The position numbers and the translations under genes are program-made. Below, piece by piece: positions 5,207-61,628 of a DNA stretch of 64,000 nucleotides (position 1 is the first letter of the stretch; every line of letters begins with the position of its first letter). The notes beneath the pieces were generated by a model, which ran no database searches, was not told where the DNA came from, and saw only the letters and a program-made list of their open reading frames with translations. Source of the stretch: Dokdonella sp. (GTDB lineage Bacteria > Pseudomonadota > Gammaproteobacteria > Xanthomonadales > Rhodanobacteraceae); assembly GCA_024707225.1 (NCBI GenBank), contig JANQAE010000001.1, positions 558,001 through 622,000 of the forward strand, given 5' to 3'.

Positions 5207-6936
5207 TCAGGCCTGCATGCGCTGCAGGACGCCTGCGACGCGCGCACCGCTCGACGCGCGCAGCAGGGCCGGCGCATGACGCAGCAGCTCGGCGTGATCG
5301 AGCTGGGCGATCGTGTCGCGCACTTCGAGCAGGGCGCCCGGATGCATGCTGAAGTCCTCCAGGCCCAGCGCCAGCAGCAGCGCCGTGTAGCGCGTGTCGG
5401 CGGCCATCTCGCCGCACAGCGACACCGGACGCCGCGCCCGCCGCGCGATCGCGAGAATCTGCGAGAGCAGCTTGATCACCGCCGGATGCAGCGGATCGTA
5501 CAGCGTGCCCAGATGGTCGTTGGCGCGATCGGCCGCGAGCACGTACTGGACCAGGTCGTTGGTGCCGATCGAGATGAAGTCGACGTGGCGGATCAGGCCG
5601 CCGAGCGCGATCGCCGCCGCGGGCACCTCGATCATCGCGCCGAGTTCGATCTGGCCGGCGATTTCCTGGCCGGTCGAGCGCAGGTCGTGCACGCACTGGT
5701 CGAGCATGCGCCGCACGCTGTGGATCTCCTCGACCAGCGTGATCATCGGCACCAGGATGCGCACCGGTCCGTAGCTCGACGCGCGCAGGATCGCGCGCAG
5801 CTGGGTGATCATCAGCTGCGGATGACGCAGCGCCAGCCGCACGCCGCGCACGCCGAGCGCGGGATTGGGTTCCTCCTCCAGCGCGACGCCCGAGGCATCG
5901 GCCTTGTCCGCGCCGAGGTCGAGCGTGCGGATCGTGACCGGCAGACCGCCCATGCCGAGTACGAGGTCGCGGTAGGCCAGAAACTGCTCTTCCTCGCCGG
6001 GGATCTCCCGGCGTTGCAGGAACAGGAATTCGGTCCGGTACAGGCCGATGCCGGCCGCGCCGGACAGGCGCGCGCGGGCGACGTCGGCCGGCATCTCCGC
6101 ATTGGCGTAGAGGCGGATCGGCACGCCGTCGCGCGTCAGCGTCTGCGCTTCGCGCAGCCGTGCCAGCCGCTTGCCGATCTGGACCTGCTCGCGCTGCCAG
6201 GTGCGGTAGCGCGCGATGTCCTGCGCATTGGGATGGACCACGACTTCGCCGTGCTCGCCGTCGACGAGGATCAGGTCGCCCTCGGCGATCGATCCGAGCG
6301 CGTCGTCGACGCCGACGACCATCGGCAGCCGTAGCGAGCGCGCCAGGATCGCGCTGTGCGACAGCGTGCTGCCGTTGGTCAGCACCGCGCCGAGTACGCC
6401 GTTCTCGGCCAGCGGCACCAGCTCGCGGGCGCGACGATGTCGCTGACGAGGATCTCGCCGACGCGCGAGGCCAGTTTGCGCTCCTCGACGCTCGATTCGC
6501 GGACCAGGGCGGCCTGGACGCGGCCGAGCACGTGGTCGATGTCCTCCTTGCGGCTGCGCAGGTAGGCGTCTTCCATCGCTTCGAACACCGCGACCAGCTT
6601 GTCGCGCTGCAGCTTGAGCGCGGCGCTGGCACGGTAGCGTCCGCGCCGGATCAGGTCGACCAGGCCGGCGACGAGGTCGCGGTCGGCGAGGATCAGGCCG
6701 TGCGCTTCGAGGAAATCGCCGACGTCGCTGGCCAGCGTGCCGTGCAGCTTGTCGCGCAGCGTGCGCAGCTCGTCGCGCGCCAGGCCGATCGCCGCCAGCA
6801 GGCGCTCGACTTCCGGCTCGATCTCCTCGGCCGCGAGCGGACGATCGTCGACGAGGATGCGGCCGGGCTGCTCCAGGCGTGCGCGTCCGAGCGCCATGCC
6901 GCGCGCCGCGCTGCCGCCTTTAAGTACCGACCGCAC
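5207..6936 (-). CDS. ptsI: PTS phosphoenolpyruvate-protein phosphotransferase (enzyme I), frame-broken
   Basis: Enzyme I takes phosphate from phosphoenolpyruvate and passes it to HPr. The N-terminal HPr-binding part (6379-6936) and the part with the active His (TLSHSAILARS) plus the PEP-binding barrel (5207-6418) are in different frames. Around 6425-6435 the coding strand reads ...GTC GCG CCC GCG AGC TGG..., whereas adding one C gives VAPRELVPLAENG, the family sequence. With that repair the protein is 576 residues, the normal length. Downstream motifs are intact, including LYRTEFLFLQR and the C-terminal SLCGEMAAD containing the catalytic Cys. The GTG start has GGGGAG eleven bases upstream. 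Last gene of the PTS cluster, 24 bases after ptsH. The break is probably a consensus error, but a real pseudogene is not excluded. Confidence 0.85.
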
Positions 6937-6960
6937 GCTCGATGATGCTCCCCGGAATCG

Positions 6961-7230
6961 TCACTGCCCTTCGTCGAACTTGCGTTCGAACAAGTCGACC
7001 ATCGCCGCCATCGCCGCCTCCTCGTCGGGGCCGTCGGCGCGCAGGCGCAGCTGCGCGCCGAGCCCCGCGGCCAGCATCATGACGCCCATGATGCTCTTGG
7101 CGTTCACTTCCTTGCCGCGATAGGTGATGAAGATGTTCGCCTGGAATCCCTGCAGCGCCTGGACGAGCTTGGCCGAGGCCCGTGCGTGCAGGCCGAGCCG
7201 GTTGCTGACGGTGATGTCGCGTTCAAGCAT
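6961..7230 (-). CDS. ptsH: phosphocarrier protein HPr
   Basis: Small cytoplasmic phosphocarrier of 89 residues between enzyme I and the EIIA proteins. The phosphorylated His15 is in RLGLHARAS. Ser46, the target of HPr kinase, is in NAKSIMGVMMLAA, so both regulatory phosphorylation sites are intact. The start overlaps the end of the EIIA gene by 8 bases, indicating translational coupling. No EIIB or EIIC permease genes are in the window, which suggests a regulatory rather than sugar-transporting PTS. Confidence 0.95.
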   Translation of the reverse strand: MLERDITVSNRLGLHARASAKLVQALQGFQANIFITYRGKEVNAKSIMGVMMLAAGLGAQLRLRADGPDEEAAMAAMVDLFERKFDEGQ

Positions 7231-7621
7231 GGTCGACGAAGATTCCTCCGCGACCGCCGCTGGCGGCGGTCTGCGCCAATTGATCGAGCTTCTGCTCGGG
7301 ATAGTTGAGCACGCGCAGCAGCATCGGCAGGTTGAGTCCCGACACGCAGTGCATGTGGACGCCCAGGCCCGGCAGCCGCTGAGCGACGTTGCACGGCGTC
7401 GCGCCGTACAGATCGGTCAGCACCAGCACGCCGTCGCCGCCGTCGAGCGAGCGAGCGCGCTGCGTCGCGTCGCGCAGCGTGGTGTCCGGATCGGAGCCCG
7501 GCTCCACCTCGATCACGTCCAGCGGCAGCGGCAGCTTGCCGAGCACGTGACGCGCCGCCGTGATGAGCGCGCCGCCCATCGCTTCGTGAGTCAGGAGCAG
7601 TACGCCGACGCTCATCGTCAT
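7223..7621 (-). CDS. PTS EIIA component, mannose/sorbose type
   Basis: 132-residue EIIA domain protein of the mannose (EIIA-Man) fold. The phosphorylatable His12 is in VLLLTHEAMGG. The pattern GVLVLTDLYGATPCNVA matches the family. It stands alone, without EIIB, EIIC or EIID, as is common in proteobacteria with HPr kinase, where the protein likely acts as a phosphate sink or signalling output. The gene overlaps the rapZ stop by 4 bases and the ptsH start by 8 bases, so these are tightly coupled. Confidence 0.9.
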   Translation of the reverse strand: MTMSVGVLLLTHEAMGGALITAARHVLGKLPLPLDVIEVEPGSDPDTTLRDATQRARSLDGGDGVLVLTDLYGATPCNVAQRLPGLGVHMHCVSGLNLPMLLRVLNYPEQKLDQLAQTAASGGRGGIFVDHA

Positions 7622-8508
7622 TCCATCTCGCGGTGGTAGCTCAGCACCTGCCGGAAACGCTCGCGGCAGTGTTCGGCCAGCCGCTCGGCCAGGTACACCG
7701 ACCGGTGGCGGCCGCCGGTGCAGCCGATGCAGATGGTGACATAACTGCGTCCTTCCGACTCGAATCGCGGCAGCCAGCGGTCCAGGAAGCCGGCGACGTC
7801 GGCCCGGAATGCCGCCACGTCGGGCTGCTGTTCGAGCCAGTCGCGCACCGCCGCGTCGCGGCCCGACAGCGGCCGCAGCGTCGCGTTCCAGTGCGGATTG
7901 GGCAGGGCGCGTGCGTCGAAGACGAAATCGGCGTCCGACGGCACGCCGCGCCGGTACGCGAACGATTCGAACAGCAGCGTCATCGAGCCGCTCTTCTGGC
8001 CCATCTCGGTGATGACCAGGCGGCGCAGCTGATGGACGTTGATGTCGCTGGTGTCGATCACCGTGTCGGCGATCGCGCGCATCGGACGCAGCAGCTTGCG
8101 CTCCTGCACGATCGCGTCGGCCAGCGCGATGCCGTCGGCCGACAGCGGATGCCGGCGACGGGACTCCGAATAGCGCTTGAGCAGGACCTCGTCGCGCGTG
8201 TCGAGGAACAGCAGGCGGTAATCGATGCCGGTGCGTGCCAGATCCGACAGGATGCCGGGCAGGCGGTCCAGATCCTGGCGGCGGTTGCGCACGTCGACGC
8301 CGACGGCCAGGCGCGGATGCATCGCGATCGAGTCCTGCGACACCGCCGACACGAAGGCCGGCATCAGCGCGCTGGGCAGGTTGTCGACGCAGTAGTAGTC
8401 CAGATCCTCGAGCGTGCGCAGCGCGACCGTCTTGCCGGAGCCGGACAGTCCGCTGACGACGATCAGCTGGGTGCGCTGGGCGGGCGCGGCGTCGGCGGGC
8501 GCTACCAT
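7618..8508 (-). CDS. rapZ: RNase adapter protein / nucleotide-binding protein RapZ
   Basis: P-loop protein of 296 residues. In E. coli RapZ guides RNase E to the GlmZ small RNA and so controls glucosamine-6-phosphate synthase; outside the enterics its role is less certain. Walker [11 protein letters not shown] is at about residues 18-27. The C-terminal domain ends with [13 protein letters not shown], the conserved Cys/Gly/His signature. The ATG overlaps the hprK stop by 7 bases (ATGGTAG) and the gene overlaps the EIIA gene downstream. Its place among PTS genes is the classical yhbJ position. Confidence 0.94.
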
Positions 8509-9452
8509 GGCGGCAGGCGGCGCATCTGGTGCGCCTGGCGGTCGATGAAGGTCTGCGCCGGATCCAGTCCCTTGGTCTTGAGCATGTGACTGCGCACGGC
8601 CGCCTCGGCCAGCACCGCGATGTTGCGGCCCGGGGCGACCGGGATCACGATCTGCGGCACCTGCAGGTCCAGCACCTCGCGGTACCCGACGTCGCCGGTC
8701 AGCCGGATCATGCTGTCGCCGGGCACGTCGAAGCGCTGCGGCTGCAGATGGACGATCAGGCGCAGGTACTTGGACTGCTTGACGGCCGTGTGGCCGAACA
8801 TCTCGCGCACGTTGAGGATGCCCAGGCCGCGCACTTCGAGCAGGTCGCGCAGCATCTCCGGACAGGTGCCGTCGATGACGTCCGGCGCGATCTGCGTGAA
8901 TTCCGGCGCGTCGTCGGCGACCAGACGGTGACCGCGCGTGATCAGTTCGAGCGCCAGCTCGCTCTTGCCGGTGCCCGATTCGCCGGTGATCAGCACGCCG
9001 ATCGAGTTGACCTCCATGAACACGCCGTGCAGCGTGATCTGGCGCGCCAGCGCACGCGCCAGGTGGTACTGCAGGTAGGTCAGCAGCTCGTGGCCGCGCT
9101 TGGGGCTGGCCCACAGCGGCGTCTGCGATTCATCGGCGGCCTCGCGCAGATCGGCCGGCACGGCCTGATCCTTGGTGACGACCAGCGCGATCGGCTTGTA
9201 GTTCATCACGCGCTCGATCGTCTCCCAGCGCTGGCGCGAGTCCAGGCCGTCCAGATAGTTCAGCTCTTCCGTGCCGATGATCTGGACCTTGTTCGGATAG
9301 ATGATGTTGAGATAGCCGACCAGCGACGGCCGGCGCGTCTGCGCGCCGACCGGCTCGATCACGCGGTTCTCGCCGCGCATGCCGCTGACCCAGCGCAGGG
9401 CCAGGCGCTCGCTGACGGCGTCGAAGATCTCGCGGGCGGTGACTCGATCCAC
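8502..9452 (-). CDS. hprK: HPr kinase/phosphorylase
   Basis: Phosphorylates HPr on Ser46 using ATP, and can reverse this, thereby tuning how much HPr is available for the phosphorelay. 316 residues. Walker A GESGTGKS is at 157-164, preceded by the conserved His142 (TLHGVFMEV). The HprK signature region ([12 protein letters not shown]) and the C-terminal [15 protein letters not shown] follow. The start is GTG. The paired target Ser46 is intact in ptsH. Gene order ptsN-hprK-rapZ-EIIA-ptsH-ptsI is the one known from Xanthomonas and relatives. Confidence 0.95.
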
Positions 9453-9501
9453 GCAGATGTCCCGGGGGCTGCGGCGGCGCTGCGGGCCGCGTCGGCGCGC
9501 C

Positions 9502-9969
9502 TCAGCGGGATTCGCGGGCGGCGCGCGTCCATTCTGCCAGTTTCAGGCGCAGAGTGGCGGCGTCGGGGGCGTCGCGGAGCTGGTCGGTGAGGCGGGTGTC
9601 GGAGAAGATCTCGGCCAGCTCGGCGAGCAGCTGCAGGTGCTGGTTCGTGAAGTGCGCCGGTACCGCGAGTGCGGCCACCAGATCGACCGGCCGGCCGTCG
9701 GCGGCGCCGAAATCGACCGGCTCGGCCAGACGCACGAAGGCGGCACGCGCCCCGTCGATGTCGGGCGAGCGGCCGTGCGGAATCGCCACGCCGCTGCCCA
9801 GACCGGTGCTGCCGAGCTGTTCACGCGCGAGCAGCGACTCGAGGATGGCCGGCAGATCGCCGTCGTCGACGGCGAGCATGCCGGCCAGGTGTCGGATCAG
9901 GTGCGGCTTGTCGCCGGCCCGGACGCCGACATGGACCCGCTCCGCGGGCAGAAGATCGAGCAAAGGCAT
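9502..9969 (-). CDS. ptsN: nitrogen-regulatory PTS EIIA component
   Basis: 155-residue EIIA-Ntr protein. His65 in SGVAIPHGR is the phosphorylation site. The fold ends with the family pattern [16 protein letters not shown]. In other bacteria EIIA-Ntr controls potassium transport, stress responses and RpoN-linked functions through its phosphorylation state. It lies between hpf and hprK in the rpoN cluster, with 24 bases to hpf and 49 to hprK. Confidence 0.94.
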
Positions 9970-9993
9970 CGGGCGGAGCGGGTGTCCTTGGCG

Positions 9994-10314: not shown

Positions 10315-10468
10315 GACGACCTCCGTTGCTGCGGGTGAACCGGGGCAATCCCCGGCAGTTGCCCGAATCACGCCTCGCGTGATGCAGGCCTCAAGCTGTT
10401 CGGACATGAATCGGTTGGCGAGGTTCCTCAGGGTTCTAGGGTTTTCGATGGGGTCTTTGCGGACGGGT
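10315..10468 (-). promoter_or_regulatory. rpoN-hpf leader with two hairpins
   Basis: The 154 bases between rpoN and hpf hold two perfect inverted repeats close to the hpf start. One is ATCACGC-CTC-GCGTGAT at 10367-10383. The other is CCGGGG-CAAT-CCCCGG at 10340-10355, ending 25 bases before the hpf start codon. Neither has a following T run in the transcribed direction. They could be mRNA processing or stability elements, or a translational control of hpf; this is inference. Confidence 0.35.
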
Positions 10469-12078: not shown

Positions 12079-12797
12079 TCACATCCGGAATTCGCGGCCC
12101 AGATAGACCTCGCGCACCTGCTCGTTGGTCAGAATGTCCGCCGGGACACCCTGCGCGAGCACGACGCCGTCGCTCATGATGTAGGCGCGGTCGCAGATGC
12201 CGAGCGTCTCGCGGACGTTGTGGTCGGTGATCAGGATGCCGATGCCGCGTCCTTGAGGTGCCGCACGATGCGCTGGATGTCGACGACCGAGATCGGGTCG
12301 ACGCCGGCGAACGGCTCGTCAAGCAGCATGAACCGCGGCTTGGCGGCCAGGGCACGGGCGATCTCGACGCGGCGCCGCTCGCCGCCGGACAGGCTCTGGC
12401 CCTTCTGGCCGGCGATGTGGCCGATCTGCAGCTCCTGCATCAGTCCTTCCAGCTCGGCCGCGCGGCCGTCGGCGTCGAGGTCCTCGCGCAGTTCGAGGAT
12501 CGCCAGGATGTTCTCGGTCACGGTGAGGCGCCGGAACACCGACGGCTCCTGCGGCAGATAGCCCACGCCCATGCGCGCGCGCACGTGCATCGGCTGCTGG
12601 GTGATGTCGGTCTCGTCCAGGCGGATCACGCCGGCGTCCGACGCGATCAGCCCGACCACCATGTAAAAGCAGGTCGTCTTGCCGGCCCCGTTGGGGCCGA
12701 GCAGGCCGACGACCTCGCCGGCCCCGACCGCGAATCCGAAATCGCGTACGACGTTGCGGCCGCGGAAACTCTTGCGCAGCCCCTCGGCACTCAGCAT
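12079..12797 (-). CDS. lptB: LPS export ABC transporter ATP-binding protein, frame-broken near C-terminus
   Basis: ATPase of the LptB2FGC machine that pulls lipopolysaccharide out of the inner membrane; essential in most Gram-negatives. Walker A GPNGAGKT is at 34-41, the ABC signature LSGGE at 136-140 and Walker B MLLDEP at 157-162. After HLKD (residue 183) the frame is lost and stops at 12231. One extra C near 12245-12251 (GAC CGC GGC) restores [20 protein letters not shown] and continues to YLGREFRM, stop at 12079, giving about 239 residues, the normal size. The ATG overlaps the lptA stop by one base (TGATG). Because the gene is essential, a one-base consensus error is the likeliest cause. 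Confidence 0.9.
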
Positions 12798-17841: not shown

Positions 17842-18452
17842 TCAGCCCTTGCGTGGACCGCCGCGCGGCGTCGCGCGTCGCGCGGCGATCTGGGCATTCT
17901 CCAGTTCCTTGGCGACGTCGGCCAGTTCGTCGCGCACGCGCCGCACCGCCGGCGCGACCGGCCGCGCCGCGCCGCGGACTTGCGCGTGCTCGCGGCCGGC
18001 CGCGCCGGGCCGCCGCGCTGCAGCTGCTCGATGCGGTGCGCGAGCGTCTCCACGCGTGCCGCCAGTGCGTCGAACTCGGTGCGGCTCACGACCGGCAGCG
18101 CCGAGCGCACGCGCGCGCCGAACGCATCGCCGACCGCCTCGAGCAGATCACCGGCCGCCTCGCCGCGGGTGCGTGCGGTCTTGCGCAGCTGGCCGTCGAA
18201 ATCGATACCGGCCTTGACCAGCGCCTGGAAATGCCGTGCGCCCTCGGCCTGCGCGCGTGCCAGCGCGCCGAGTCCGGCCAGCCAGATCGAGCGGCCGCTG
18301 CCGGGATCGGGTGCCGTGGGGACCGCCTCGGCGGCCTTCGTGACCTTGGTGGCCTTGGCCGCCTTGGCCGCTTTGGCCGGCTGGCGCGGCGATGCCGGCT
18401 TGGGCGCGGTGCCGCGCAAACGGGTGGGGCGCTTCGATCCGGATGCTGCCAT
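17842..18452 (-). CDS. phasin (PHA granule-associated protein), frame-broken
   Basis: Phasin-type protein that coats polyhydroxyalkanoate granules. The N-terminal Lys/Ala/Thr-rich region (PAKAAKAAKATKVTKAAE) is followed by the phasin helix SIWLAGLGALARAQAEG and a helical body. Around 17960-17978, in a GCGGCGCGGCGCGG repeat, the frame breaks. The other frame gives VRRVRDELADVAKELENAQ and stops at 17842, a much better acidic coiled-coil end than the Arg-rich alternative. The total of 611 bases fits a one-base deletion (203 residues). ATG at 18452 has AGGA seven bases upstream; ATG at 18458 is the alternative. Confidence 0.75.
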
Positions 18453-18569: not shown

Positions 18570-20917
18570 TCAGCGCAGCACGCGCACCTGCACCTGCGCA
18601 TAGGTCCCGTCGGAGGCGAGCGCGGTGATCGTGCGCGGGCCGGGCGTGTCGAACGGCTGCTCGATCGGCCGGCTGCCCTGCGAGCGCGCGACCAGCAGGC
18701 CGTCGACCAGCCACAGCACCTCGCCCTCGGCGCCGAGCGCGCGCAGGCGTACGCGCGCCGGCTGGTCGCTGTTGGGCGCTCGCGCGAGCGTCGCGCCGTC
18801 GCCGATGCCCTCGATGCGAAGCCCCTGCAACTGGCTCAGGCCATCCTCCGCACAACCCGGCGCCAGCGGCGGCAGACTGGCGCGACGCCGCGTCTCGCGC
18901 GACAGCCACGGATACGCCGCGACCGGCCAGCGCGCGACGTCGATCCTGCGCGAGGGCTCGCGCAGGCAGCCGGCGCCGAGCCGCTGTCCGCTGGCGGCGT
19001 CGACGCTCAGATGGACCAGGCCGGCGCTCCAGCGCGTCGCATCGCGCTCGGCCAGCGTCGGCGGAATCACGCCGTCGAGCACCCAGGCGTCGCGTTTCTG
19101 GTGGCAGCGGTCCGGATGGTCCGGATCGAACGCCAGGCCGAGCGGCCAGCAGATCGCCACCGAGGTGACGGCGGCCGGCGGCGGCTGCGGCGTCGGCGCG
19201 ATCGCGCTGCGCGGCAGCGTGTCGACCGCCTGGAACATCAGCGGCAGCGCCGTGACGGCACCGTACTGGCCCGGCAGCGGCGTGCCGTCGGGCCGCCCGA
19301 TCCAGACGCCGACCGTATGGCGCCGCGTGGTACCGATCGCCCAGGCGTCGCGGAAGCCGTAGCTGGTGCCGGTCTTCCATGCCACGCGCGGCCGCGAGCC
19401 GGTGTCGAAGCTGCCGCTGGCGTAGCCGGGCCGCGGATTGGCCTCGAGCATCTCGCGCACGATCCAGGCCGCGCCTTCGGACAGCAGGCGGCGCTCGACG
19501 ACCGGCGCATCTGGCAGGTGGCGCACGCGGCCGGCGATGCCGCCGCGATTGAGCGCGCTGTAGGCGCCGACCAGATCCTCCAGCCGTGCGCCGGCGCCGC
19601 CGAGGATCACCGACAGGTTCGGCAGCGCTCCGCGCGGCAGGCGCAGGCTCAGGCCGGCGTGCTCGAGGCGCGCCGCGAAGCGCGTCGGCGTGATCCGGTC
19701 GAGCAGGTCGACGGCCGGGATGTTCAATGACAGCCGCAGTGCGTCGGCCGCGGCGACCGGACCGTTGAAGGCCATGTCGAAATTGCCGGGCCGGTAACCG
19801 CCGAACGCCTGCGGCGCGTCGACCAGCAGGCTCTCCGAATGGATCAGGCCGTCGTCGAGCGCGAGGCCGTACAGGAACGGCTTGAGCGTCGAGCCGGGTG
19901 ACCGCCAGGCGCGCACCATGTCGACGTGGCCGAGCCGCGCCTCGCTGCCGAACGCGCCGGAGCCGACGTAGGCCAGCGTCTCGAGTGTCTCGTTGTCGAC
20001 GACGAGCAGGGCCGCCGAGGTGCGCTCGGGCAGCCGCGCCAGGTAGTCGCCGACGCGCGCCTCGAGCGCGCGCTGCAGCTCGACGTCGATCGTCGAGGTG
20101 ATCCGGCGCCGGTTCGGGTACGCCGCGCGCAGCCGTTCGGAGAACAGGGCGCGGTCATCGGCGGCTGCAGCGAGCGCGACGCGACCGTCTCGATCCGTGC
20201 ATCGGCGACCGCGGCCGGCGTCCAGACGCCGAGCCGCGCCATGCGTTCGAGCACCTTGTCGCGATAGGCGCGCGCAACCTCGGCATTGCGGTCGGGCCGC
20301 AGCCGCGTCGGCGCCTGCGGTAGCACCGCGAGCAGGGCGGCCTCGGCATGCGAGAGCCGCTGCGCAGACTTGCCCAGATACGCCCAGGACGCGGCCTCGA
20401 CACCCTCGACGGTGCCGCCGAACGGGGCATGGTTCAGATACAGGGTGAGGATCTCGCGCTTGGACAGGTGCGCCTCGAGCTGCAACGCGCGCATCATCTG
20501 GCGCAGCTTGCCGGCCAGCGTATGCGGCGTGCCGTCGAGGATGCGCGCGACCTGCATCGTCAGCGTCGAGCCGCCGGAGACCAGGCGGCCGTGCCGCAGT
20601 CCCTGGCCGAGCGCACGCGCCAACGCCAGCGGATTGATGCCGGGATGATGCGCGAACCAGCGGTCCTCGTAGTTCAGCAGCGCCTCGACATAGAGCGGCG
20701 AGACCTGGTCGGGCGTCACCGGATAGCGCCAGACGCCGTCGCGGTCCGGAAACGCGCGCAGCGGCTGGCCGTCGCGCGCGAGCACGACCGTACCGGCGCC
20801 CGATCGATCGGGCAGCGGCAGCGGAAAGCAGCGGTCGAGCACCCACAGCAGCGCGGCCGCCACGAGCACGGCCGCGAGCAGACCCTTGAGCCAGCGCGAG
20901 CGCAGCATCGCCTTCAT
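18570..20917 (-). CDS. pbpC: penicillin-binding protein 1C, frame-broken
   Basis: Bifunctional inner-membrane protein with a GT51 glycosyltransferase and a transpeptidase domain plus the C-terminal BiPBP_C domain. An N-terminal anchor (about residues 11-27) is followed by LLNYEDRWFAHHPG (catalytic Glu) and GGSTLTMQVAR. The transpeptidase has SxxK in SPGSTLKPF, SLN, and KTG in WKTGTSYGFRD. The two halves are in different frames: the first runs past 20150 and the second resumes at DDRALFSERLRAAYPN. One missing base near 20150-20170 (CAG CCG CCG) reconciles them, giving 782 residues, the normal size. In many bacteria pbpC is paired with an alpha-2-macroglobulin gene, as here. Confidence 0.88.
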
Positions 20918-27104: not shown

Positions 27105-27907
27105 ATGCGCCTCAGTTTTCCGAACGGCGAGCACCGCGATGTCGTCATCGCCGCCGGCGCCGTCACGCTCGGCAGCGCGGAAGGCAACACGATCGTGATC
27201 GCGGCCGACGGCGTGCACGCCTGGCATGCGCGGGTCACCGCCGACGCACGCGGTCTGGTGCTCGACGTGCTCGACGCGGCCGCGCGTACCCACGTCAACG
27301 CGCGTCCGGTCCGCGAGAAGGCGCTGCTGCGGCTCGGCGACACGGTCTGTCTCGATCGCGTCGCGGTCCTGGTCAAGCCCGACCGCGATACCGACGTCGC
27401 CTCCGATGCCGACACGATCGACGCCGACGGCTGCGCGCCGGTCGCGCGCGCCGCGTTGCGCGGCATCTCCGGCAGCTGGTTCGGCAAGTCGATCGCGCTC
27501 AATCCGCGGCTGACAATCGGATCGTCAGCCGGCAACGACCTCGTCGTCGACGAGGCCGGCGTCGAGCCGCTGCATGCCACGATCGTGCTCGGCGGTCAGC
27601 GCATCGTGCTGCGCAGCCACGGCAGCGGCGGCGTGCACGTCAACGGCGTCGTCGTCGCGGCCGCGGTGCTGCGCTCGGGCGACCAGGTCGTGGTCGGCCG
27701 CAACCGGTTCCTGATCGAGGCGCCGGGCCTGCCGTCGGCCGACGAGGCGCGGCGCACGCCGCTGATCCCGCAGCCCGCCATCGACGCGTCCCTGCTCGAG
27801 GCCGCCGGCGAGGAATCGAATCGGCGCGCAGCGGCCTGTGGTGGCTGATCGGCGGCGGCGCGCTGATCGGCCTGGCGCTGGCGCTGCTACTGCTGCTGGG
27901 CACCTGA
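27105..27907 (+). CDS. FHA-domain protein with C-terminal membrane helix, frame-broken
   Basis: Two tandem FHA-like domains: residues about 1-85 (VTLGSAEGNTIVIAADGVHAWHARV) and 110-205 (LTIGSSAGNDLVVDEAGVEP, then LHATIVL). FHA domains bind phosphothreonine peptides. The frame in which the FHA domains lie stops at 27848, but shifting by one base near 27810-27830 gives SARSGLWWLIGGGALIG and a Leu-rich membrane helix ending at 27907. The total of 803 bases fits a one-base deletion (267 residues). Converges on msrQ with a 21-base overlap. No Ser/Thr kinase gene is nearby, so the partner is unknown. Confidence 0.75.
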
Positions 27908-38540: not shown

Positions 38541-39709
38541 ACGCACTCGCCTGGTTGTTCGCGCTGCTCCCGGTCGCCGCGCTATCGGGCTGGCTGCTCG
38601 GCCGGCGCGGTAGCGAGCGCAGCTCCGGGGCCCGCGTCAACGAGCTGTCGACCAGCTACTTCCGGGGCCTCAACTACCTGCTCAACGAGCAGCAGGACAA
38701 GGCGATCGAGGTCTTCCTCAAGCTCGCCGAGATCAACCGCGACACCGTCGAGACGCATCTGGCACTCGGCAACCTGTTCCGCCGCCGCGGCGAGGTCGAG
38801 CGCGCGATCCGCGTGCATCAGCATCTGATCGCGCGGCCCAATCTGAGCGAGTCCGAGAAGACCGTCGCCCTGCTCGAGCTCGGCGAGGACTACATGCGTG
38901 CCGGCCTGCTCGACCGCGCCGAGACGCTGTTCAGCGATCTCGTCGCGATGGACGCGCTGGCGCCGTCGGCGCTGCGCCATCTGATCGCGATCTACCAGCA
39001 CGAGCGCGACTGGAACAAGGCGATCGAGCACGCGCGCCGGCTCGAGAAGGCCGGCGGCGATCCGCAGGCGGCGATCATCGCGCAGTTCTACTGCGAGCTG
39101 GCCGAGCAGGCGCGCGCGCAGGCCGACTGGCCGACCGCGCTGGCGTATCTGGACCAGGCCGAGGGCGTGGAAGGCCGCTGCGTGCGCGCCAGCATCGTGC
39201 GCGGCCATATCGAGGCCGCGCGCGGCAACCTGGCCGAGGCCGCCGCCGCGTTCGAGCGCGTCGCCGAGCAGGACGTGGACTACGTGCCGGAGGTCCTGGC
39301 GCCGCTGCTCGACTGCTACGCGCGCCTGCAGCGCATGCAGCGCGCCGAGGCGTTCCTGCTCGGCATCGCCGAGCGCTACAAGGGCGTCTCGCCGGTGCTC
39401 GCGCTGGCCAAGCTGTATGCGAGCACGCGCGGCGAGGCGGCCGCGATCGCCTATCTGAACCAGACGCTGCGCCAGCGGCCGTCGGTGCGGGCGCTGATCG
39501 CGCTGATCGACGTCAGCCTGGACCGCTCGCGCGGCGAGGCCCGCGAGAACCTGCTGCTGCTGCGCGAACTGGCGCGCAAGCTGCTCGAGGGCCAGGCGAT
39601 GTACCGCTGCAACCGCTGCGGCTTCGGCGCCAAGGCGCATCACTGGCAGTGTCCGAGCTGCAAGAGCTGGGAATCGGTGCGCCCGATCCACGGCGTGGTC
39701 GGCGAGTAG
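38537..39709 (+). CDS. lapB: lipopolysaccharide assembly protein LapB
   Basis: 390-residue TPR protein anchored by one N-terminal helix (about 3-20). In E. coli it delivers LpxC to FtsH and so limits LPS synthesis. About nine TPR units fill residues 35-345 (YFRGLNYLLNEQQDKAIEVF opens the first). The C-terminal rubredoxin-like metal site has Cys358, Cys361, Cys372 and Cys375 (YRCNRCGF and CPSCKSW). The frame is intact. Confidence 0.95.
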   Translation: MNALAWLFALLPVAALSGWLLGRRGSERSSGARVNELSTSYFRGLNYLLNEQQDKAIEVFLKLAEINRDTVETHLALGNLFRRRGEVERAIRVHQHLIARPNLSESEKTVALLELGEDYMRAGLLDRAETLFSDLVAMDALAPSALRHLIAIYQHERDWNKAIEHARRLEKAGGDPQAAIIAQFYCELAEQARAQADWPTALAYLDQAEGVEGRCVRASIVRGHIEAARGNLAEAAAAFERVAEQDVDYVPEVLAPLLDCYARLQRMQRAEAFLLGIAERYKGVSPVLALAKLYASTRGEAAAIAYLNQTLRQRPSVRALIALIDVSLDRSRGEARENLLLLRELARKLLEGQAMYRCNRCGFGAKAHHWQCPSCKSWESVRPIHGVVGE

Positions 39710-39718
39710 GCCATCGGC

Positions 39719-40833
39719 ATGGCCGTATCGGCGACGACCGCGCGCTGCTCGCCGTGCTGGCGTTCGCGCTGTCGGCGCTGCTGACCCGCGCCAGCATCGC
39801 CTATGCGCTGCGCCGCCGCCTGATCGACCAGCCCGGCCAGCGCCGCTCGCATACGGTGCCGACACCGCGCGGCGGGGGCATCGCGATCGTCGCGGCGATT
39901 CTGGTCTGCATCGGCCTGCCGATCGCGCTGTGGGCGCCGCAGCGCTGGCCGGTCGTCGCGGCGATCGCGCTGGTCGCGGCGATCGGCTGGATCGACGATC
40001 ACCGGCCGCTCGGTGCCGCGACGCGGCTGGCCGTACATGCGCTGGCCGCGGCGCTGGTCTGCGTATCGGTTGCGCCGACATTCGTGACCGATGCCGGCGC
40101 GGCGGCGCTGCCGGGCGCGTTCGACGCGGGGCCGGCGCTGCGTTGGCTGCTCGTGCTCGCCGCCGTCGTGACGATCGTCTGGAGCATCAACCTGCACAAT
40201 TTCATGGACGGCATCGACGGCCTGCTCGCGCTGCAGGCGCTGTTCGTGTTCGTCGTGATGGCGATCCTGCTCGGCCGCTACGGCGCGCCGGCACCGGCCG
40301 CCGCGGCGGCCGTCATGGCCGCTGCGGTCGGCGGCTTCGTGCCGTTCAACTTTCCGCGCGCGCACATCTTCATGGGCGACGTCGGCAGCGGCGTGCTCGG
40401 CCTGCTGGTCGCGCTGCTCGGGCTGGCGCATCTGGGACAGACCGCGTTGGCGCCGGTCAACGTCGCTATCGCCTGTTCGGCCTTCGTTGTCGACGCCTCG
40501 GCTACCTTGCTCTCGCGCATGCTGCGCGGCCGGCGTTGGTATAGTGCGCACCGCGAGCACCTCTATCAGTGGCTGGTGCGCAGCGGGCGCGGCCATCCGC
40601 GGGTCGTCGCGCTCTATGCGCTCTGGAATCTCGGCGTCGTCGTGCCGGTGCTGTGCTGGGTCAATCGTTCACCTCGGGTGTCTGGCGCCATGTCGAACAT
40701 CGCCATCGGTCCGTTTGAGGCGTCGCCCGCCGTCTGGGGCGCCTGCGCCGCGGTCTACGCCGGCGGGCTCGCGCTGTGGTTCGCCGGCAAGCGGCACTGC
40801 CTGCGCCGTGCGCGGGCGCGGAGCGCGCGATGA
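39719..40833 (+). CDS. WecA/MraY-family undecaprenyl-phosphate glycosyl-1-phosphate transferase, start region frame-broken
   Basis: Polytopic membrane enzyme that loads a sugar-1-phosphate onto undecaprenyl phosphate, the first step of O-antigen or exopolysaccharide assembly. About ten helices. Family motifs: PTPRGGGIAIV, the Asp-Asp pair in GWIDDHRPLG, NFMDGIDG, FPRAHIFMGDVGSG and the C-terminal AHREHLYQWL. The frame has no ATG until inside helix 1. GTG at 39754 would remove part of that helix. ATG at 39719, behind GTAGG, is one frame off; a single missing base near 39735-39745 (CGCGCGC) would join them, and the total of 1115 bases fits that. Stop overlaps the next ATG (ATGA). Confidence 0.82.
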
Positions 40834-46627: not shown

Positions 46628-49600
46628 ATGGGCGCCATCGCACCACCCGCGGTAGATCCGGTACGCAGGCGCTGGCGCCGCGTCCGCCGCATCGTCGCCG
46701 GCACGCTGGCGGCGATCGTGATCGCGCTCGGCGTGCTGGTCGGCATCGGTCAGCTCGTCGTGCCGTGGCTGGTGCGCAATCCGGACCGCGTCGAGGCCTG
46801 GCTCGCCGAGCGCATCGACCGGCCGGTCACGATCGGCCACATCGCGGCGCGCTGGGTGCGCGGCGGTCCGCAGCTGGTGCTCGAGAACGTACTGATCGGC
46901 GCGCGCGCGCCGGAGCAGACGCCGCTGCGGCTCGAGCGCGCCGAGCTCGCGCTGAACGTGTTCGCGCCGTTCCAGCGCAACCGCGCCTGGAACGAGTTCC
47001 GCCTGGTCGGGCTGGATCTCTCGCTCGAGCGCGGCGCCGACGGCCGCTGGCAGCTGCACGGCTTCGACCTCGACCCCGCCGCCAGCGGCGATCCGCTCGG
47101 CGCGCTCGGCGTGCTGGTCCTGGTCGACCTCCGGTTGCGGCTCGACGACGAGCGGCACGGCGTCCATTTGCAGGTCGGCGCCAGCGAGCTGCGTGTGGTC
47201 AATCGCGACGCCGAGCTCTACGTGCTCGGCAAGGTGCGCAGCCTCGACGAGGAGGCCAGCGCGCTCGACCTGATCACCTCGATCCGCCGCGGCGAAGGCC
47301 GCGCGCCGGTTGTATCTGTCCGGCCGCGACGTCGACCTCGGCCGGCTGCTGCGCGGGCAGGCCTACGGCGGCACGCGTCTGGACGCCGGCCGCGGTCTGG
47401 TCCAGGCCTGGGCCGAATGGGATCACGGCCGCGTGCTCGACGTGCGCACGCGCCTGGATCTGCGCGGTCTGAGGCTTGCCGCCGAGCCGCCGAATTCGCG
47501 GGGCGCCGGGACACCGGGCGCAAGCGCGCAGGATTCCAGGGTGCAGGAGGCAAAGGCGACGCTGGACCGGCTCGCGCTGGCGCTGCGCTGGCGCCGCGGC
47601 GACGGCGATGCCTGGTCGCTCGATCTGGCCGACGTCGTGCTCGGTGCCGGCGGCACCGAGCATCCGCCGATGCGTGCCGGCGTCCAGCTGCTCGGCACCG
47701 CGCCGCCGCGCTGGCGCGCCGCCGCCGACACGATCGCGCTGGCGCCGCTGGCCGGCCTGGCCGCGCAGATCGGCCAGCTGCCGGCCGGCCTGCGCGGCTG
47801 GCTGCGCGATGCCACGCCGCGCGGCCGCCTCGACCAGGCCTATCTGCGCTACGACGGCGCCGACGACTACGAGTTGAGCGCGCGGTTCTCGGAGCTGGTG
47901 ATCGCGCCGGCCGCCAAGGCACCCGGCCTCGGGCCGCTGCACGGCGAACTGCGCGGCGACGCGCAGGCCGTGCTGATCGCCGTGCCGGCACAGGGCTTCA
48001 CGGCCGAGTACCCGGGCGTGTTCCGCGAGCCGTTCGAGTTCTCGGCGTTCGGCGGCGACGTCGTGCTGCGGCCGATCGACGACGGCTGGCGCGTGGAGAC
48101 CGAGCGCATCGTCTTCGAGGGTGACGGCTACGGTGGCGAGCTGCGCGGCGGCGTCGAGCTGCCGCGCGGCGGGGCGCGGCCGCGGCTGGATCTGTATGCG
48201 GCGGTCGCGCACGGCGACGTGCCGGCCGCCAAGCGGTTCTGGCCGGTCAACGTGATGCCGCGGCCCGCGGTCGAGTGGCTCGACCGCGCGCTGCAGGCCG
48301 GCCGCGTCGTCGATGGCCATGCGGTGTTTCGCGGCGATCTGGCCGAATGGCCGTTCGACGGCTACGGCGGACGCTTCGAGGCGATCGCGACGATCGAGGA
48401 CACCCAGCTGCAGTACCTGGCCGACTGGCCGCGCGTCGAGGGCGTCAGCGCGGTCGCGCGCTTCGTCAACGACGGCATGGAGGCCTCGGCGACCGCCGGC
48501 AGCTCGCTCGGGGCCGCGCTCGGCAGTGCCGAGGCGCGGATCGCCGATTTCGGCGAGGCGATGCTCGAGCTCTCGGCGGTCGGGCGCGGCAGCGGCCGCA
48601 ACCTGCTCGGCTTCCTGCGCGCGACGCCGATCGGCGCGCAGCACCGCGACGCGCTGGCCGGCCTGGCGGTCGGCGGCAACGCCGATTTCGATTTCAAGCT
48701 GCAGGTGCCGCTCAAGAAGGACGCGCCCGGCTTCTCGCTCGACGGCACGGCCACGCTGGCCGGCGCGACGGTCACGCAGCCGGACTGGCGCGTCGATTTC
48801 AGCGACGTCGCCGGCGCGATCCGGTTCGACCGCGGCGGCTTCGTCGCCGACAAGCTGCGCGTGACGACACGCGGCCACGCCGGCACGCTCAGCGTCGCCG
48901 TCGGTGATTCGGTGACCGAGGCCGGGCAGGTCGTGCAGGCGCGGCTCGACGCGCGGTTGCCGGCGCAGGTCGTGTTCGCCGACGTGCCGGGACTCGAATC
49001 GATCCTCGCGCACATGGACGGCAGCTCGCAGTGGACGATCGCCGCCGGCGTGGCCGGCGCCGACGGCGCCGCGCCGGGCCGCACGCGGCTGAGCGCGCAC
49101 AGCGATCTGCTCGGCACCGCGATCGATCTGCCGGCGCCGCTGGCCAAGGCGGCCGACGTCGCGCTGCCGCTCGACGTCGCGCTGCCGATGCCGTATGCCG
49201 GCGGCGAACTGCGCGTGACGCTCGGCGACGTGCTGACCGTCAGCGGCCGCCTGCCGGCACCGGACGCGCCGCTGGCGATGCGGCTGGACTTCGGCGCGAA
49301 GGCCGTCGGCGCACTGCCCGATCGCGGATGGGTGATCGGCGGCCGCGCGCCGCTGCTCGACCTCGGCGGCTGGGCCAGCTTCGTCGGCGCCAGCTCCGGT
49401 AGCGGCGAGGGCGATTTCGAGCTGCGCGGTGCCGATCTGACGGTCGATGCGCTGATGCTCGGCACGCGCGCGATCGGTGCGGCCGGCGTGCGCATCACGC
49501 GCGGCGCCGCCGCCACCGAGTTCGCCTTCACCGGCGATGCCTTGCAGGGCGGCATCACGCTGCCGGCCGCGGATCTGATGCGCGCCGGCGTGACCGTGCA

Positions 49601-50534
49601 TCTGGACCGTCTGCACTGGCCCGAATCGCCCGAGGACGACGACGTGGACGCGCCCGTGGCCGGCGCCGATCTGACGCCCGGTCTGCTGCCGCCGCTGCAC
49701 ATCTGGATCGGCGACCTGCGCATCGGCCGCACCGTGCTCGGCCAGACCCGCTGGGAGAGCCGTCCGGTAGCCGGCGGCATGCGCATCGACCAGCTCGACG
49801 CGAAGTCGCCGAACCTCGAGATGCGCGCGCAGGGGGACTGGAGCGGCACGCCCGGCGCGAACCGCTCGCAGCTGGCGATCGACCTGAGCTCGCACAATCT
49901 GGGCCGCATGCTCGACGCGTTCGGCTATGCCGGCATCATCGACGGCGGCCGCACCACGGCGCGCATCGAGGCCGGCTGGGCCGGGCCGCCGACCGGCTTC
50001 GCGCTGGCCAGGCTCGACGGCACGCTCTCGATCAGCGTCGGCGACGGTCGCATCCTCGACGTCGAGCCGGGCGCCGGGCGGATCTTCGGCCTGCTGTCGC
50101 TGACCGAGATTCCGCGCCGGCTCAGCCTGGACTTCTCGGACTTCTTCCGGTCCGGCTTCAGCTTCAACGCGATCAACGGCACGTTCCGGCTCGCCACCGG
50201 CCAGGCGACCACCGAGGACCTGTCGATCAAGGGGCCGGCCGCCGACATCCGGATCAGCGGCCGCACCGACCTGCGCAACAAGGTCTACGACCAGCGCCTG
50301 ATCGTGACGCCGCATGCCGGTGCGACGCTGCCGGTCGTCGGCGCGCTCGCCGGCGGACCGGTCGGGGCGGCCGCCGGACTCGTGGTTCAGGGGCTATTCA
50401 ACAAGCAAATCAATGCAGTAGCTCGCGCGACCTATGAGGTCACCGGGCCCTGGGACAAGCCGCAGATCCGTCTGGTCTCGCGCGAGGGCCGGGCCGGTCG
50501 CGCCGGCCGCGGCGAGTCCGAGCCCGCGCGCTGA
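46628..50534 (+). CDS. yhdP: YhdP family envelope lipid-transport protein, frame-broken
   Basis: AsmA-like bridge-type protein, one of the TamB/YdbH/YhdP set that moves phospholipids to the outer membrane. N-terminal anchor at about residues 20-42. The long beta-rich groove follows, and the C-terminal domain ends with the AsmA-like pattern [18 protein letters not shown]. The first 226 codons and the rest are in different frames. Near 47301-47309 the reading GGC CGC GCG C CGG TTG TAT shows one extra C; removing it gives [15 protein letters not shown]. The total of 3907 bases fits an insertion (1301 residues, normal length). This is the only insertion among the frame breaks here. Confidence 0.88.
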
Positions 50535-52616: not shown

Positions 52617-52630
52617 CGGAAAAGCATAAC

Positions 52631-54511: not shown

Positions 54512-54529
54512 GCGTCGCTTCCCGAGCGT

Positions 54530-54557: not shown

Positions 54558-54565
54558 GCGCGCAT

Positions 54566-56238
54566 TCAGCCGCCCTGACGTGCGCTGTCGAGCATCTGCC
54601 GCGCGTGCGCCAGCGTCTGCCGCGTGATCTCCACGCCGCCGAGCATGCGCGCGACCTCGTCGCGCCGGGCGCCCTCGTCGAGCGTCTCGATCTGCACCCG
54701 CGTGGAATCGGCGTCGCTGGATTTGGCGACGCGCAGATGATGATGCGCCTGCGCCGCGACCTGCGGCAGATGCGTCACGCACAACACCTGGCAGCCGGCC
54801 GCCAGCCGGCGCAGTTTCTGGCCGACGATCTCGGCGACCGCGCCGCCGACGCCCGAATCGACCTCGTCGAAGACCATCGTGCCGGTCGCGTCGGCACCGA
54901 GCGCGGCGACCTCGATCGCCAGGCCGATCCGCGACAGCTCGCCGCCGGAGGCGACCTTGCGCACGCGCGCGGCGGCTGGCCGGGATTGGTGCTGACCAGC
55001 AGCTCGCAGCGCTCGCGGCCGGCCGCCGAAGGCACGCCGTCGCCGTCGGGCTCGAGCTGGACCTCGAAGCGCCCGGCCATGCCGAGCTCGCCCATCAGCG
55101 CGGTGACTGCCGTCGCGAGCCGGTCACCGGCCTGCGCGCGGGCCTGCGACAGCGCAGCGGCGGCGCGCTCGTAGTCGGCCGCGATCCGCTCCGACTCGCC
55201 GCGCAGCCGTTCGAGTTCGTCGCCGGCGCCGCGTAACGCGTCCAGCTCGTTGCGCAGTTCGTCGGAGAGCGGCTTGAGCTCGGCCATCGGCCGGCGGTGC
55301 TTGCGCGAGAGCTCGTGCAGCTTGGTCAGCTGCGCCTCGATCTCGGCGAGCCGCTCCGGGTCGAGGTCGAGCGCGTCCTGGTAGCGCGTCAGCGTGTCGC
55401 CGGCCTCCTCGACCTGGATGCGCGCCGCGTCGAGCAGGTCGGCGACGCCGCCGAGGCGCGGGTCGAGCTCGGCCAGGCGCTGTGCGTCGGCCTGCGCGCG
55501 ATGCAGCAGGCGCGTCAGCGCGAACTCGCCGTCACCGTCGATGCGCTCGGCCAGGCCCGCGCAGCCCTGCACGAGCTGGCCGGCGTTGGCGAGGCGCCGA
55601 TGGTCGTCCTCGAGCGCGGCGAAGGCCTCGCCGTCGAGCGCGTGTCGGTCGAGCTCGGCCAGCTGGTGGCTCAGCCAGTCGATCCGCTCGGCGTGGTCGG
55701 CACCACCGGTCAGCGCGGCGATGCGCGCCTGCCTCTGGCGCCAGTCCTGGGCCAGGCCGGTCACCGTCCGGCGCGCGTCGTCGTGGCCGCCGAACGCGTC
55801 GAGCAGGTCCATCTGTGCGGCGCGGTCGAGCAGGGTCTGATGCTCGTGCTGGCCGTGGATCTCGATCAGACGCTCCCCGAGCGCCTTGAGCTGGGCCAGC
55901 GCGACCGGCCGGCCGTTGATCCAGGCGCGCGAGCTGCCCTCGCTGCGGATCACGCGGCGCAGCTCGCAGGCGCTGTCGTCGTCGAGTTCCTCGGCGCGCA
56001 GCCAGGCCAGCAGGTCCTCGCGGCCGTCGATCGCGAAGCGCGCCGAGAGCTCGGCGCGGTCGCAGCCGTGGCGGACCAGGCCGCTGTCGCCGCGGCTACC
56101 GGCCAGCAGCAGCAGCGCATCGACCAGCAGCGACTTGCCGGCGCCGGTCTCGCCGGTGACCACGGTCAGGCCCTCGCCGAAGTGGATCTCGGCGTGCTCG
56201 ACGATCGCGAAGTCCTTGACGTAGAGGGTTTCCAGCAT
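54566..56238 (-). CDS. recN: DNA repair protein RecN, frame-broken
   Basis: SMC-like ATPase for double-strand-break repair. Walker A GETGAGKSLLVDAL is near residues 30-43, a long coiled-coil middle follows, and the ABC signature SGGELSR plus Walker B TMVFDEVDSGVGG are at the end. The last 130 residues are in another frame: near 54961-54975 the coding strand reads CCG CGC GCG TGC GCA AGG, where one extra base gives PRALRKVASGGELSR. The repaired length is 557 residues (E. coli 553). Divergent from hrcA. Confidence 0.92.
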
Positions 56239-56595
56239 GGCGTAGGCGTGCGGTCCGAGGACAGTCGGGGCGCCGATTATCGTTGCCGGCGCCGGTCGTG
56301 AACAGGATGCTGCAGGCTCGGCGTCGCACCGCGTGATACGCGGTCCGTGCCGCACGGCGACACACGCGCTCGACGGCGGTGCGGTTCGCCCGCGGCCGCG
56401 GCCGCATCGGCGTCGCCTGGACGGGCGCACGCATGGGGCGCGGCAAGCCGGCGCGGCGGGCCGCCCGGCCGAATCGGTCGCTCCTGCGCCGGCCGCAGCC
56501 GGCCGCCCGGCCCGGCCGGGGTCTGGCCCGCTTGAACCCGGCGCGGCCGCTTGCTAGCGTGCTCGGCGCCGGCTGACCGGCCATGCGCACGTCCG
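56239..56595. other. 357-base divergent region between recN and hrcA
   Basis: Very GC-rich, with short inverted repeats. The right end carries the candidate hrcA promoter at 56532-56560. I see no CIRCE element (TTAGCACTC...GAGTGCTAA), no LexA box (CTGT-N8-ACAG) near recN that I could trust, and no coding frame with protein-like composition. Confidence 0.45.
56532..56560 (+). promoter_or_regulatory. candidate promoter of the hrcA operon
   Basis: TTGAAC at 56532-56537 and TAGCGT at 56555-56560, 17 bases apart. The -35 region reads CTTGAA, which also fits the start of a heat-shock sigma-32 element, but the CCCCAT-type -10 is absent, so housekeeping sigma is as likely. Confidence 0.4.
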
Positions 56596-57651: not shown

Positions 57652-57672
57652 GTGCCTCACAATCGCATGCCT

Positions 57673-57705
57673 GCCTCCGGCGTCCGACGCCGGCGGCGTT
57701 TTTTT
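57673..57705 (+). terminator. intrinsic terminator between hrcA and grpE
   Basis: GCC-t-CCGGCG / CGCCGG-c-GGC stem with a TCCGA loop, followed by G and seven T's (57699-57705). This is the best Rho-independent terminator in the window. It ends about 8 bases before the grpE ribosome binding site, so grpE would need its own promoter or read-through. Confidence 0.75.
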
Positions 57706-57720
57706 GACAGGTGGAGAGCC

Positions 57721-58257
57721 ATGATGCAAAGCACCGATCCAGCCGGAAACCTCAACCCCGAAGGCGTCGCGCCGCCGGACGAGGTGATGGCCGATCTCGA
57801 TCGGCTCAACACGCAGCTGGCCGAGGCCGAGCGCAACCTCGCCGAGATGCGCGAGACGGTCCTGCGCGAGCGCGCCGAGATCGAGAACCAGCGCCGGCGG
57901 CTGCAGCGCGATCTGGAGCAGGCGCGCCGCTTCGCCAACGAGAAGCTGCTGGCCGATCTGCTGCCGGTCCTGGACAATCTCGAGCGCGGTCTGGCCGCGA
58001 CCGGCGAGGACTTCGCGGCGCTGCGCGGCGGCGTCGAGCTGACGCTGCGCGAGCTGACGCGCGTGGCCGAGGCGAACGGACTCAAGGCGATCGATCCGGC
58101 CGGCGAGGCCTTCGATCCGGAGCGTCACCAGGCGATGCAGATGGTGCCGACGCAGGCGCACCCGGCCGGCTCGGTGGTCGCCGTGTTCCAGAAGGGCTAC
58201 GTCCTCAACGAACGCCTGCTGCGGCCGGCGCTGGTCACGGTGGCGCAGGCCGAGTGA
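57721..58257 (+). CDS. grpE: nucleotide exchange factor GrpE
   Basis: 178-residue co-chaperone that releases ADP from DnaK. Long N-terminal helix (ADLDRLNTQLAEAERNLAEM, then RERAEIENQRRRLQRDLEQA). C-terminal beta wing with VAVFQKGYVLNERLLRPALV. Two tandem ATGs; GGAG lies four bases before the first and seven before the second. Confidence 0.95.
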   Translation: MMQSTDPAGNLNPEGVAPPDEVMADLDRLNTQLAEAERNLAEMRETVLRERAEIENQRRRLQRDLEQARRFANEKLLADLLPVLDNLERGLAATGEDFAALRGGVELTLRELTRVAEANGLKAIDPAGEAFDPERHQAMQMVPTQAHPAGSVVAVFQKGYVLNERLLRPALVTVAQAE

Positions 58258-58270
58258 TCGCGTGATCCGC

Positions 58271-58301
58271 GACGGCGGCCGGTGAGGGCCCGGCCGCCGT
58301 C
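58271..58301 (+). terminator. 12-bp hairpin after grpE
   Basis: Perfect stem GACGGCGGCCGG / CCGGCCGCCGTC with a 7-base loop, beginning 14 bases after the grpE stop. No T run follows, so termination would be partial or Rho-assisted. Confidence 0.42.
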
Positions 58302-58423
58302 GATCCAGGCGCCGGTTTCCGATGCGCCGTTGCACCGGGGAGTTCAGGAATTCGTCAACGGCGGCGCGTCGAGCGGACGTGAGCGCGCGATGCGCGCCGG
58401 CGATCGATTCGATGCGAAAACCG

Positions 58424-58449
58424 CTTGAAAGCGGGGTCCAGACCCCCAG
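58424..58449 (+). promoter_or_regulatory. sigma-32 heat-shock promoter upstream of dnaK
   Basis: CTTGAA at 58424-58429 and CCCCAG at 58444-58449, 14 bases apart. This fits the sigma-32 consensus (CTTGAA, 13-17 bases, CCCCAT) with one mismatch. Predicted start about 50 bases before the dnaK ATG. Confidence 0.6.
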
Positions 58450-58509
58450 ATTCTGCGCCAGTCACGGTCATTGCGACCGAATCCATTTCGCGGGAGAGAG
58501 TAGACCATC

Positions 58510-60428
<1,919 letters not shown>

Positions 60429-60444
60429 GACGCAAGACGAGAGG

Positions 60445-60477
60445 AAACGGAGCCGGTCCGCCGGCTCCGTTTTCGTT
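60445..60477 (+). terminator. terminator between dnaK and dnaJ
   Basis: Perfect 12-base stem AAACGGAGCCGG / CCGGCTCCGTTT with a TCCG loop, followed by TCGTTT. The T run is interrupted. It may lower dnaJ expression relative to dnaK. Confidence 0.6.
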
Positions 60478-60510
60478 TCCGCCGCCCCGACCTGACGTCT
60501 CGCGCCGATC

Positions 60511-61628
60511 ATGAGCAAACGCGACTACTACGAAATCCTCGGTGCCGAGCGATCGGCCACGGAAGAGGAGATCAAGAAAGCCTTCCGCCGGCTGGCGATG
60601 AAATGCCATCCGGACCGCTGTCCCGACGACCCCGCTGCGCAGGAGCGCTTCAAGGAGGCCAAGGAGGCCTACGAGGTGCTGTCCGATCCGCACAAGCGCG
60701 CGGCGTACGACCAGCACGGCCACGCCGCATTCGAAGGCGGCATGGGCGGCGGCGGGTTCGCGGCGACGTCGACGACATCTTCGGCGACATCTTCTCGAAC
60801 ATCTTCGGCATGGGCGGCGGCCGCGGCGGTCCGCGGCGCGGCTCGGATCTGCGCTACATGCTCGAGCTCGACCTCGAGGAGGCCGTGTTCGGCGTCGAGA
60901 AGTCGATCGAGGTGCCGACCCTGATCGAGTGCGAGACCTGCACCGGCACCGGCTCGGCCGACGGCAAGACCGCCACCTGCAACACCTGCCGCGGCCACGG
61001 CCGCGTGCGCATGCAGAACGGCATCTTCTCGGTGCAGCAGACCTGCCCGCACTGCGGCGGCAGCGGCAAGACGATCGCCAATCCGTGCCGCGACTGCCGC
61101 GGCGAGGGCCGCGTGCACGACGAGCGCACGCTGTCGGTGCGCATTCCGGCCGGCGTCGACAACGGCGACCGCATCCGCCTGACCGGGCAGGGCGAGGCCG
61201 GCCCGCCTGGCACCGTGCCGGGCGATCTCTACGTCGAGGTGCGCGTGCGCGAGCACGAGGTGTTCCAGCGCGAAGGCGACGACCTGCACTGCGAGGTGCC
61301 GATCCGCTACGGCCAGGCCGCGCTCGGCGCGGAGTTGAAGATCCCGACGCTCGGCGGCGAGGCCAGCATCACGGTGCCGGCCGAGACGCAGAGCGGCAAG
61401 CTGTTCCGGCTGCGCGGCAAGGGCGTCAAGTCCGTGCGCAGCGGCCGCACCGGCGACCTGATCTGCCGCGTCGTCGTCGAGACCCCGGTGCGCCTGACGC
61501 GCACGCAGCGCGAGCTGCTCGAGCAGTTCGAGGCCACGTTCGAAGGCGCCGACGCGGCCGCACATTCGCCGCGCAACAGCTCCTGGCTCGACAACGTCAA
61601 GCAGTTCTGGGATCGCGTGACGTCCTGA
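60511..61628 (+). CDS. dnaJ: chaperone protein DnaJ (Hsp40), frame-broken
   Basis: Co-chaperone that stimulates DnaK ATPase. J domain with HPD in [11 protein letters not shown]. Gly/Phe region (about 78-115). Zinc domain with four CxxCxGxG repeats ([32 protein letters not shown]). C-terminal substrate domains follow. The frame breaks in the Gly-rich linker near 60758-60764: TTC GCG GCG ACG needs one G to read TTC GGC GGC GAC GTC, giving [18 protein letters not shown]. Repaired length 372 residues, normal. Confidence 0.95.

Follow-up and report, generated by a model that had tools for sequence, protein, structure and literature searches.

The window, by which we mean the whole 64,000-nucleotide stretch of Dokdonella sp. 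DNA analysed here (G000:C1:558001-622000), carries ten genes whose reading frame switches relative to that of a complete congeneric genome (Table 1). The studied assembly (G000) comprises 4,366,231 bases in 4 contigs at a completeness of 99.23%, and the reference genome (G005) is a single contig of 4,446,619 bases that aligns co-linearly with the window in blocks sharing 78-90% DNA identity. Among the best matches listed for DnaK that carry a genus name were Frateuria, Tahibacter, Rhodanobacter, and Dyella, the top listed match being a gammaproteobacterial MAG, and the organism accordingly falls near the Rhodanobacteraceae and Lysobacteraceae. A scan of the window for Rfam families and tRNAs gave no matches.

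Table 1. Genes with frame breaks in the window (window positions), and two methyltransferase loci elsewhere in the assembly
Feature	Position	Strand	Frame break and remarks
ptsI (PTS enzyme I)	5207..6936	-	two frames, net -1 at about 6425-6426
lptB (LPS export ATPase)	12079..12797	-	two frames, net -1 at about 12249-12250; low coordinate inferred from G005 protein
phasin	17842..18452	-	N- and C-terminal parts in different frames, switch at about 17955-17985 (net -1)
pbpC-type penicillin-binding protein	18570..20917	-	two frames, net -1 at about 20150-20151; start inferred
FHA-domain gene	27110..27907	+	switch at about 27808-27828 (net -1); start approximate
WecA-like glycosyltransferase	39719..40833	+	switch at about 39719-39745 (net -1); Glycos_transf_4 domain
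yhdP	46628..50534	+	two frames, net +1 at about 47303-47305
recN	54566..56349	-	two frames, net -1 at about 54963-54964; start inferred
dnaK	58510..60428	+	net -1 at about 60317-60318; end inferred from G005
dnaJ	60511..61628	+	two frames, net -1 at about 60758-60759
C5-cytosine methyltransferase and adjoining ORF	L187:5047-7932 = G000:C1 about 1650047-1652932		
second C5-methyltransferase-like stretch	L188:4143-5723 = G000:C1 about 1527143-1528723	-	

A sequence-only reading of this DNA had proposed ten single-base frame breaks, nine of them deletions and one an insertion, and comparison with G005 bears this out: all ten are present, nine with a net change of -1 and the one in yhdP with +1, and the same genes are unbroken at the corresponding places in the related genome. 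Seven of the breaks (ptsI, lptB, pbpC, yhdP, recN, dnaK, and dnaJ) were called automatically. With G005 proteins as queries against the window, each of these seven genes is split into two frames, and a DNA-level walk that scores lasting phase changes recovered the same seven breaks. The phasin, FHA, and WecA-like breaks were identified by eye in three-frame translations or alignments.

Pfam places the N-terminal and C-terminal domains of ptsI, the transglycosylase and transpeptidase domains of pbpC, and the J domain and C-terminal domain of dnaJ on separate ORFs, and the RecF/RecN/SMC domain of recN is spread over two ORFs. The 576-residue G005 ptsI product is split after residue 171, the YhdP profile match starts only at position 209, on the downstream ORF, and in dnaK the HSP70 domain is complete and the C-terminal tail alone is shifted. 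A second copy of lptB was not found, other ABC ATPase matches having at most 38% identity. The Phasin and FHA domains are present in their respective genes; three-frame translation shows that the phasin ending matches G005 once it is read in the G005 frame, and that the final 30 or so residues of the FHA protein are out of frame. On its sequence, the WecA-like break is the weakest case of the ten: a single open frame (39649-40833) makes up nearly the whole gene and aligns with relatives without a shift, and the shift concerns only the opening few codons, including the ATG that matches the G005 start. A protein search of 58 relatives found the body of this gene in one frame, a result that bears on the body and not on the start. 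In another genome of the comparison, a DNA search found dnaK at two sites on one contig (G017:C40), in two fragments each time; the gene is perhaps duplicated there and perhaps broken, or there is perhaps local assembly trouble.

Frame breaks of this kind recur well beyond the window. We compared 464 kb and 400 kb of the studied assembly with co-linear G005 sequence, 864 kb or about one-fifth of the genome, and kept a break when the sequence to either side of it looks coding in the G005 frame. The first stretch gave 30 breaks over 305,825 aligned bases in 251 genes (46 raw events, 16 filtered out), and the second gave 23 over 208,497 aligned bases in 163 genes (36 raw, 13 filtered out). When frames of the studied assembly were placed on G005, 2 breaks were kept over 291,454 bases in the first stretch (33 raw, 31 filtered out) and 1 over 202,783 bases in the second (19 raw, 18 filtered out). 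Most of the raw reverse events look like the same breaks encountered from the other side, with a broken frame continuing into non-coding sequence, and the filter was meant to remove such events. Over 514 kb of aligned genes there are thus 53 breaks, compared with 3 over 494 kb in the reciprocal count, which is about 17-fold lower per aligned base, placing the excess above chance. Because the automatic count caught only seven of the window's ten breaks, it is conservative. Aligned genes in the sampled 864 kb carry about 0.10 breaks per kb, a rate that, if it holds throughout a genome that is about 90% coding, would extrapolate to roughly 400 breaks. Net changes of -1 make up 33 of the 53 breaks, +1 makes up 13, and +2 five, with one each of -2 and -4.

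We compared the sequence context of 50 of the 53 breaks, omitting three with wide intervals, with that of random GC-matched places in 2000 simulations; the position of a break in GC-rich sequence is the aligner's choice. The sequence-only reading had placed the breaks in G/C runs or GC repeats, and its two halves fared differently. CG/GC repeats are indeed present at the ten window breaks, whereas the longest nearby G/C run is 1 to 3 bases, and over the larger sample runs of 3 or more are not enriched, lying near 12 of 50 breaks against a GC-matched expectation of 11.4. The orthologous G005 stretches likewise have such runs in 17 of 50 cases against 19.3 expected. These results bear on the homopolymer cause implied by that reading, in which an ordinary misjudgment of homopolymer length would have produced the breaks. 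Single-base net losses are the commonest class, and passages of a study of another high-GC bacterium describe homopolymer deletions as the usual long-read error (PMC11649196), but the short runs and their lack of enrichment leave this explanation highly improbable.

A CCGCG-type motif is enriched at the breaks instead. CCGCG or CGCGG lies near 30 of the 50 breaks, against 9.3 expected, a value reached in none of the 2000 simulations. The association is again beyond all 2000 simulations among the 31 single-base losses with narrow intervals (21 observed, 5.6 expected), and it is weak for the +1 class (5 of 13 against 2.5, P about 0.07). In the window, CCGCG or CGCGG occurs within 5 bases of the break interval in eight of the ten genes, the exceptions being the FHA gene and recN; the intervals used for phasin, FHA, and WecA-like span 24 to 36 bases, so that matching by chance is easier there. 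GGCGC/GCGCC (22 of 50 against 10.4) and CGCG/GCGC (38 of 50 against 23.0) are also enriched, so that the motif is better described as CCGCG-type than as one exact word, and GCCGG/CCGGC (8 of 50 against 10.1) shows no enrichment. The errors are motif-linked, not run-linked. As a hint from sequence that CCGCGG could be the true site, it is found within the orthologous 22 bases of G005 at 9 of the 31 single-base losses, against an expectation of 0.8 that is not GC-matched, and its ratio of observed to expected occurrences is 0.87 in the studied assembly and 1.01 in G005. CCGCG and CGCGG together occur 11,324 times and breaks fall at a few dozen of these, so wider context or read support must also matter. 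Separately, the window has fewer G/C runs of three (138 per 10 kb) than any of eleven stretches from relatives used for comparison (184-239), a shortage that far exceeds what ten breaks could cause.

The identity of the broken genes speaks to whether the breaks are real mutations, in a decaying organism or in a mutator slipping at G/C runs, with the genes as pseudogenes. We named 20 proteins, one per break for 20 of the 53 breaks, by searching G005 proteins against NCBIfam; 17 of them hit a family with an E-value of 1e-20 or lower, some of these hits (FtsK, ScpA, and a partial LeuS piece used as query) falling below the curated cut-off. The named genes include those for leucyl- and alanyl-tRNA synthetase, SMC, ScpA, FtsK, and NAD synthase, as well as GlnD, CysK, MetX, Lon, a PBP1A-family protein, and MutS. 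Cells cannot do without leuS and alaS. In a search of the whole genome, leuS has profile positions 1-508 in one frame and 508-842 in another, alaS is split between positions 243 and 260, and an intact second copy of either was not found, other matches being weak and partial.

Selection on the reading frame also appears to continue past the breaks. Divergence from G005 at codon positions 1, 2, and 3 is 0.090, 0.068, and 0.246 in unbroken genes, 0.089, 0.072, and 0.244 before breaks, and 0.085, 0.066, and 0.252 after them. Because the sequence downstream of breaks diverges as unbroken genes do, the frame must have been under selection throughout, and the relaxed selection expected of true pseudogenes was not found, in a comparison that is blind to very recent breaks. 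Very recent true mutations fail as a general account because essential genes are among those broken. The breaks are present in the deposited sequence, genes may be lost even from a genome that is 99% complete, and mutS is itself shifted in frame close to the 3' end, yet the broken synthetase genes, the unaltered divergence, and the ordinary frequency of G/C runs at breaks make real mutation very improbable, even more so than homopolymer-length error. A mutator lineage in particular was rejected on the essential genes and on the context of the breaks. The change in mutS is a net -4 at G000:C1 about 1276346, equivalent to position 2689 of the 2832-base G005 ORF, and is probably a further error of the set. 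The MutS_V domain lies in a 976-residue open frame of the studied assembly and was found in all ten genus genomes searched. Programmed ribosomal frameshifting, which would keep the broken genes functional, has precedent in single genes of other bacteria, but with 53 breaks scattered over unrelated genes, net changes of -1, +1, +2, -2, and -4, and G005 orthologues that are open frames at the same places, its probability is negligible.

Because the breaks recur over 864 kb, strike genes that cannot be lost, leave divergence unchanged, and share a motif, we consider it almost certain that the ten window breaks arose as errors in the assembled consensus, belonging to a set that recurs along the assembly, and are not biology. 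On this central point the sequence-only reading, which had proposed a systematic consensus error, is upheld. We infer that, at the CCGCG-type motif, a base is repeatedly lost or gained during basecalling or consensus building, by analogy with the way long-read methods misread bases at sites they handle badly. An assembly of four contigs would fit long reads.

Systematic substitution errors were considered and rejected, since C-to-T differences at codon positions 1 and 2 (455 and 519) are not above T-to-C differences (558 and 561). One substitution pattern was nonetheless seen in the 864 kb, window included: NAC preceding a CTG codon in G005 often corresponds to NAT in the studied assembly, in 495 of 1108 cases when the C is the wobble base and in 2 of 112 when it occupies codon position 2. 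ATCTGA is fivefold commoner in the studied assembly than in G005 (293 vs 55). The preference for NAT before CTG looks like a real codon-context bias rather than error; the enrichment of ATCTG words falls at wobble positions and is thus not an error signal.

Why the motif would be hard to read is a matter on which we are far less confident. It may be that the DNA is modified there, and the studied assembly contains an apparently intact gene for a C5-cytosine methyltransferase of 398 residues, followed by a 527-residue ORF that by eye resembles a GHKL-type ATPase and has no family match in the one library searched. In a search of 59 relatives, a near-full-length homologue of the methyltransferase was present only in G020 (59%), and matches in the nine other genus members were partial or absent, none being full-length. 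C5 methyltransferase domains in general, however, are common in the genus: PF00145 was matched in 8 of 10 genus genomes, the studied assembly and G005 included, and the studied assembly has a second, partial match. In a second C5-methyltransferase-like stretch the conserved regions seem to be divided between two overlapping frames, and it is possibly another broken gene. We sought the target of the enzyme from solved structures, of which the nearest were the HaeIII and HhaI methylases, matched over the N-terminal part, and no specificity was inferred. The sequence would allow the breaks to be the imprint of this methyltransferase, modifying a CCGCG-containing site, perhaps CCGCGG, and thereby tripping the basecaller. 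We offer the link as a tentative hypothesis, considerably less likely to be right than wrong. If it were true, methyltransferase targets could be predicted without raw signal from the false pseudogenes of public long-read assemblies.

Our findings have practical consequences for the use of this assembly. By extrapolation from the 864 kb sampled, annotators would be faced with perhaps several hundred spurious pseudogenes in the genome, and could infer the loss of chaperone, LPS-export, recombination, and even aminoacyl-tRNA synthetase genes. Studies of gene loss and pangenomes that draw on the assembly would inherit these false pseudogenes. Because the errors cluster at a motif, polishing focused on runs may not cure them, and CCGCG sites are where reads should be inspected.

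Artefacts of several related kinds have been described. Kastor (PMC12007338) likewise finds gene-fragmenting long-read errors by comparison with reference genes, and the start of its abstract makes no statement on motif context. Passages of a study of Propionibacterium freudenreichii, which name high GC and methylation as error sources and report that differences of 798 bp added 292 genes to the count for one assembly (PMC11649196), resemble our case in describing long-read indels in a high-GC bacterium; the species differs, and those passages draw no link between indels and a CCGCG motif. The available portion of PMC10687267 describes nanopore consensus that fails at modified bases, with repeatable errors that survive polishing at sites tied there to DNA modification. 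Those errors, in Listeria, are mainly mismatches and are cured by amplification, whereas ours are indels, with modification only hypothesised. Closest in outcome are the spurious pseudogenes of public bacterial assemblies, a known artefact in which sequencing and assembly errors yield false frameshifts and stops, in numbers that track assembly quality (PMC11017572). As far as the accessible part of that work goes, it blames low coverage, read quality, platform, and assembler, whereas the breaks that we describe cluster at a motif.
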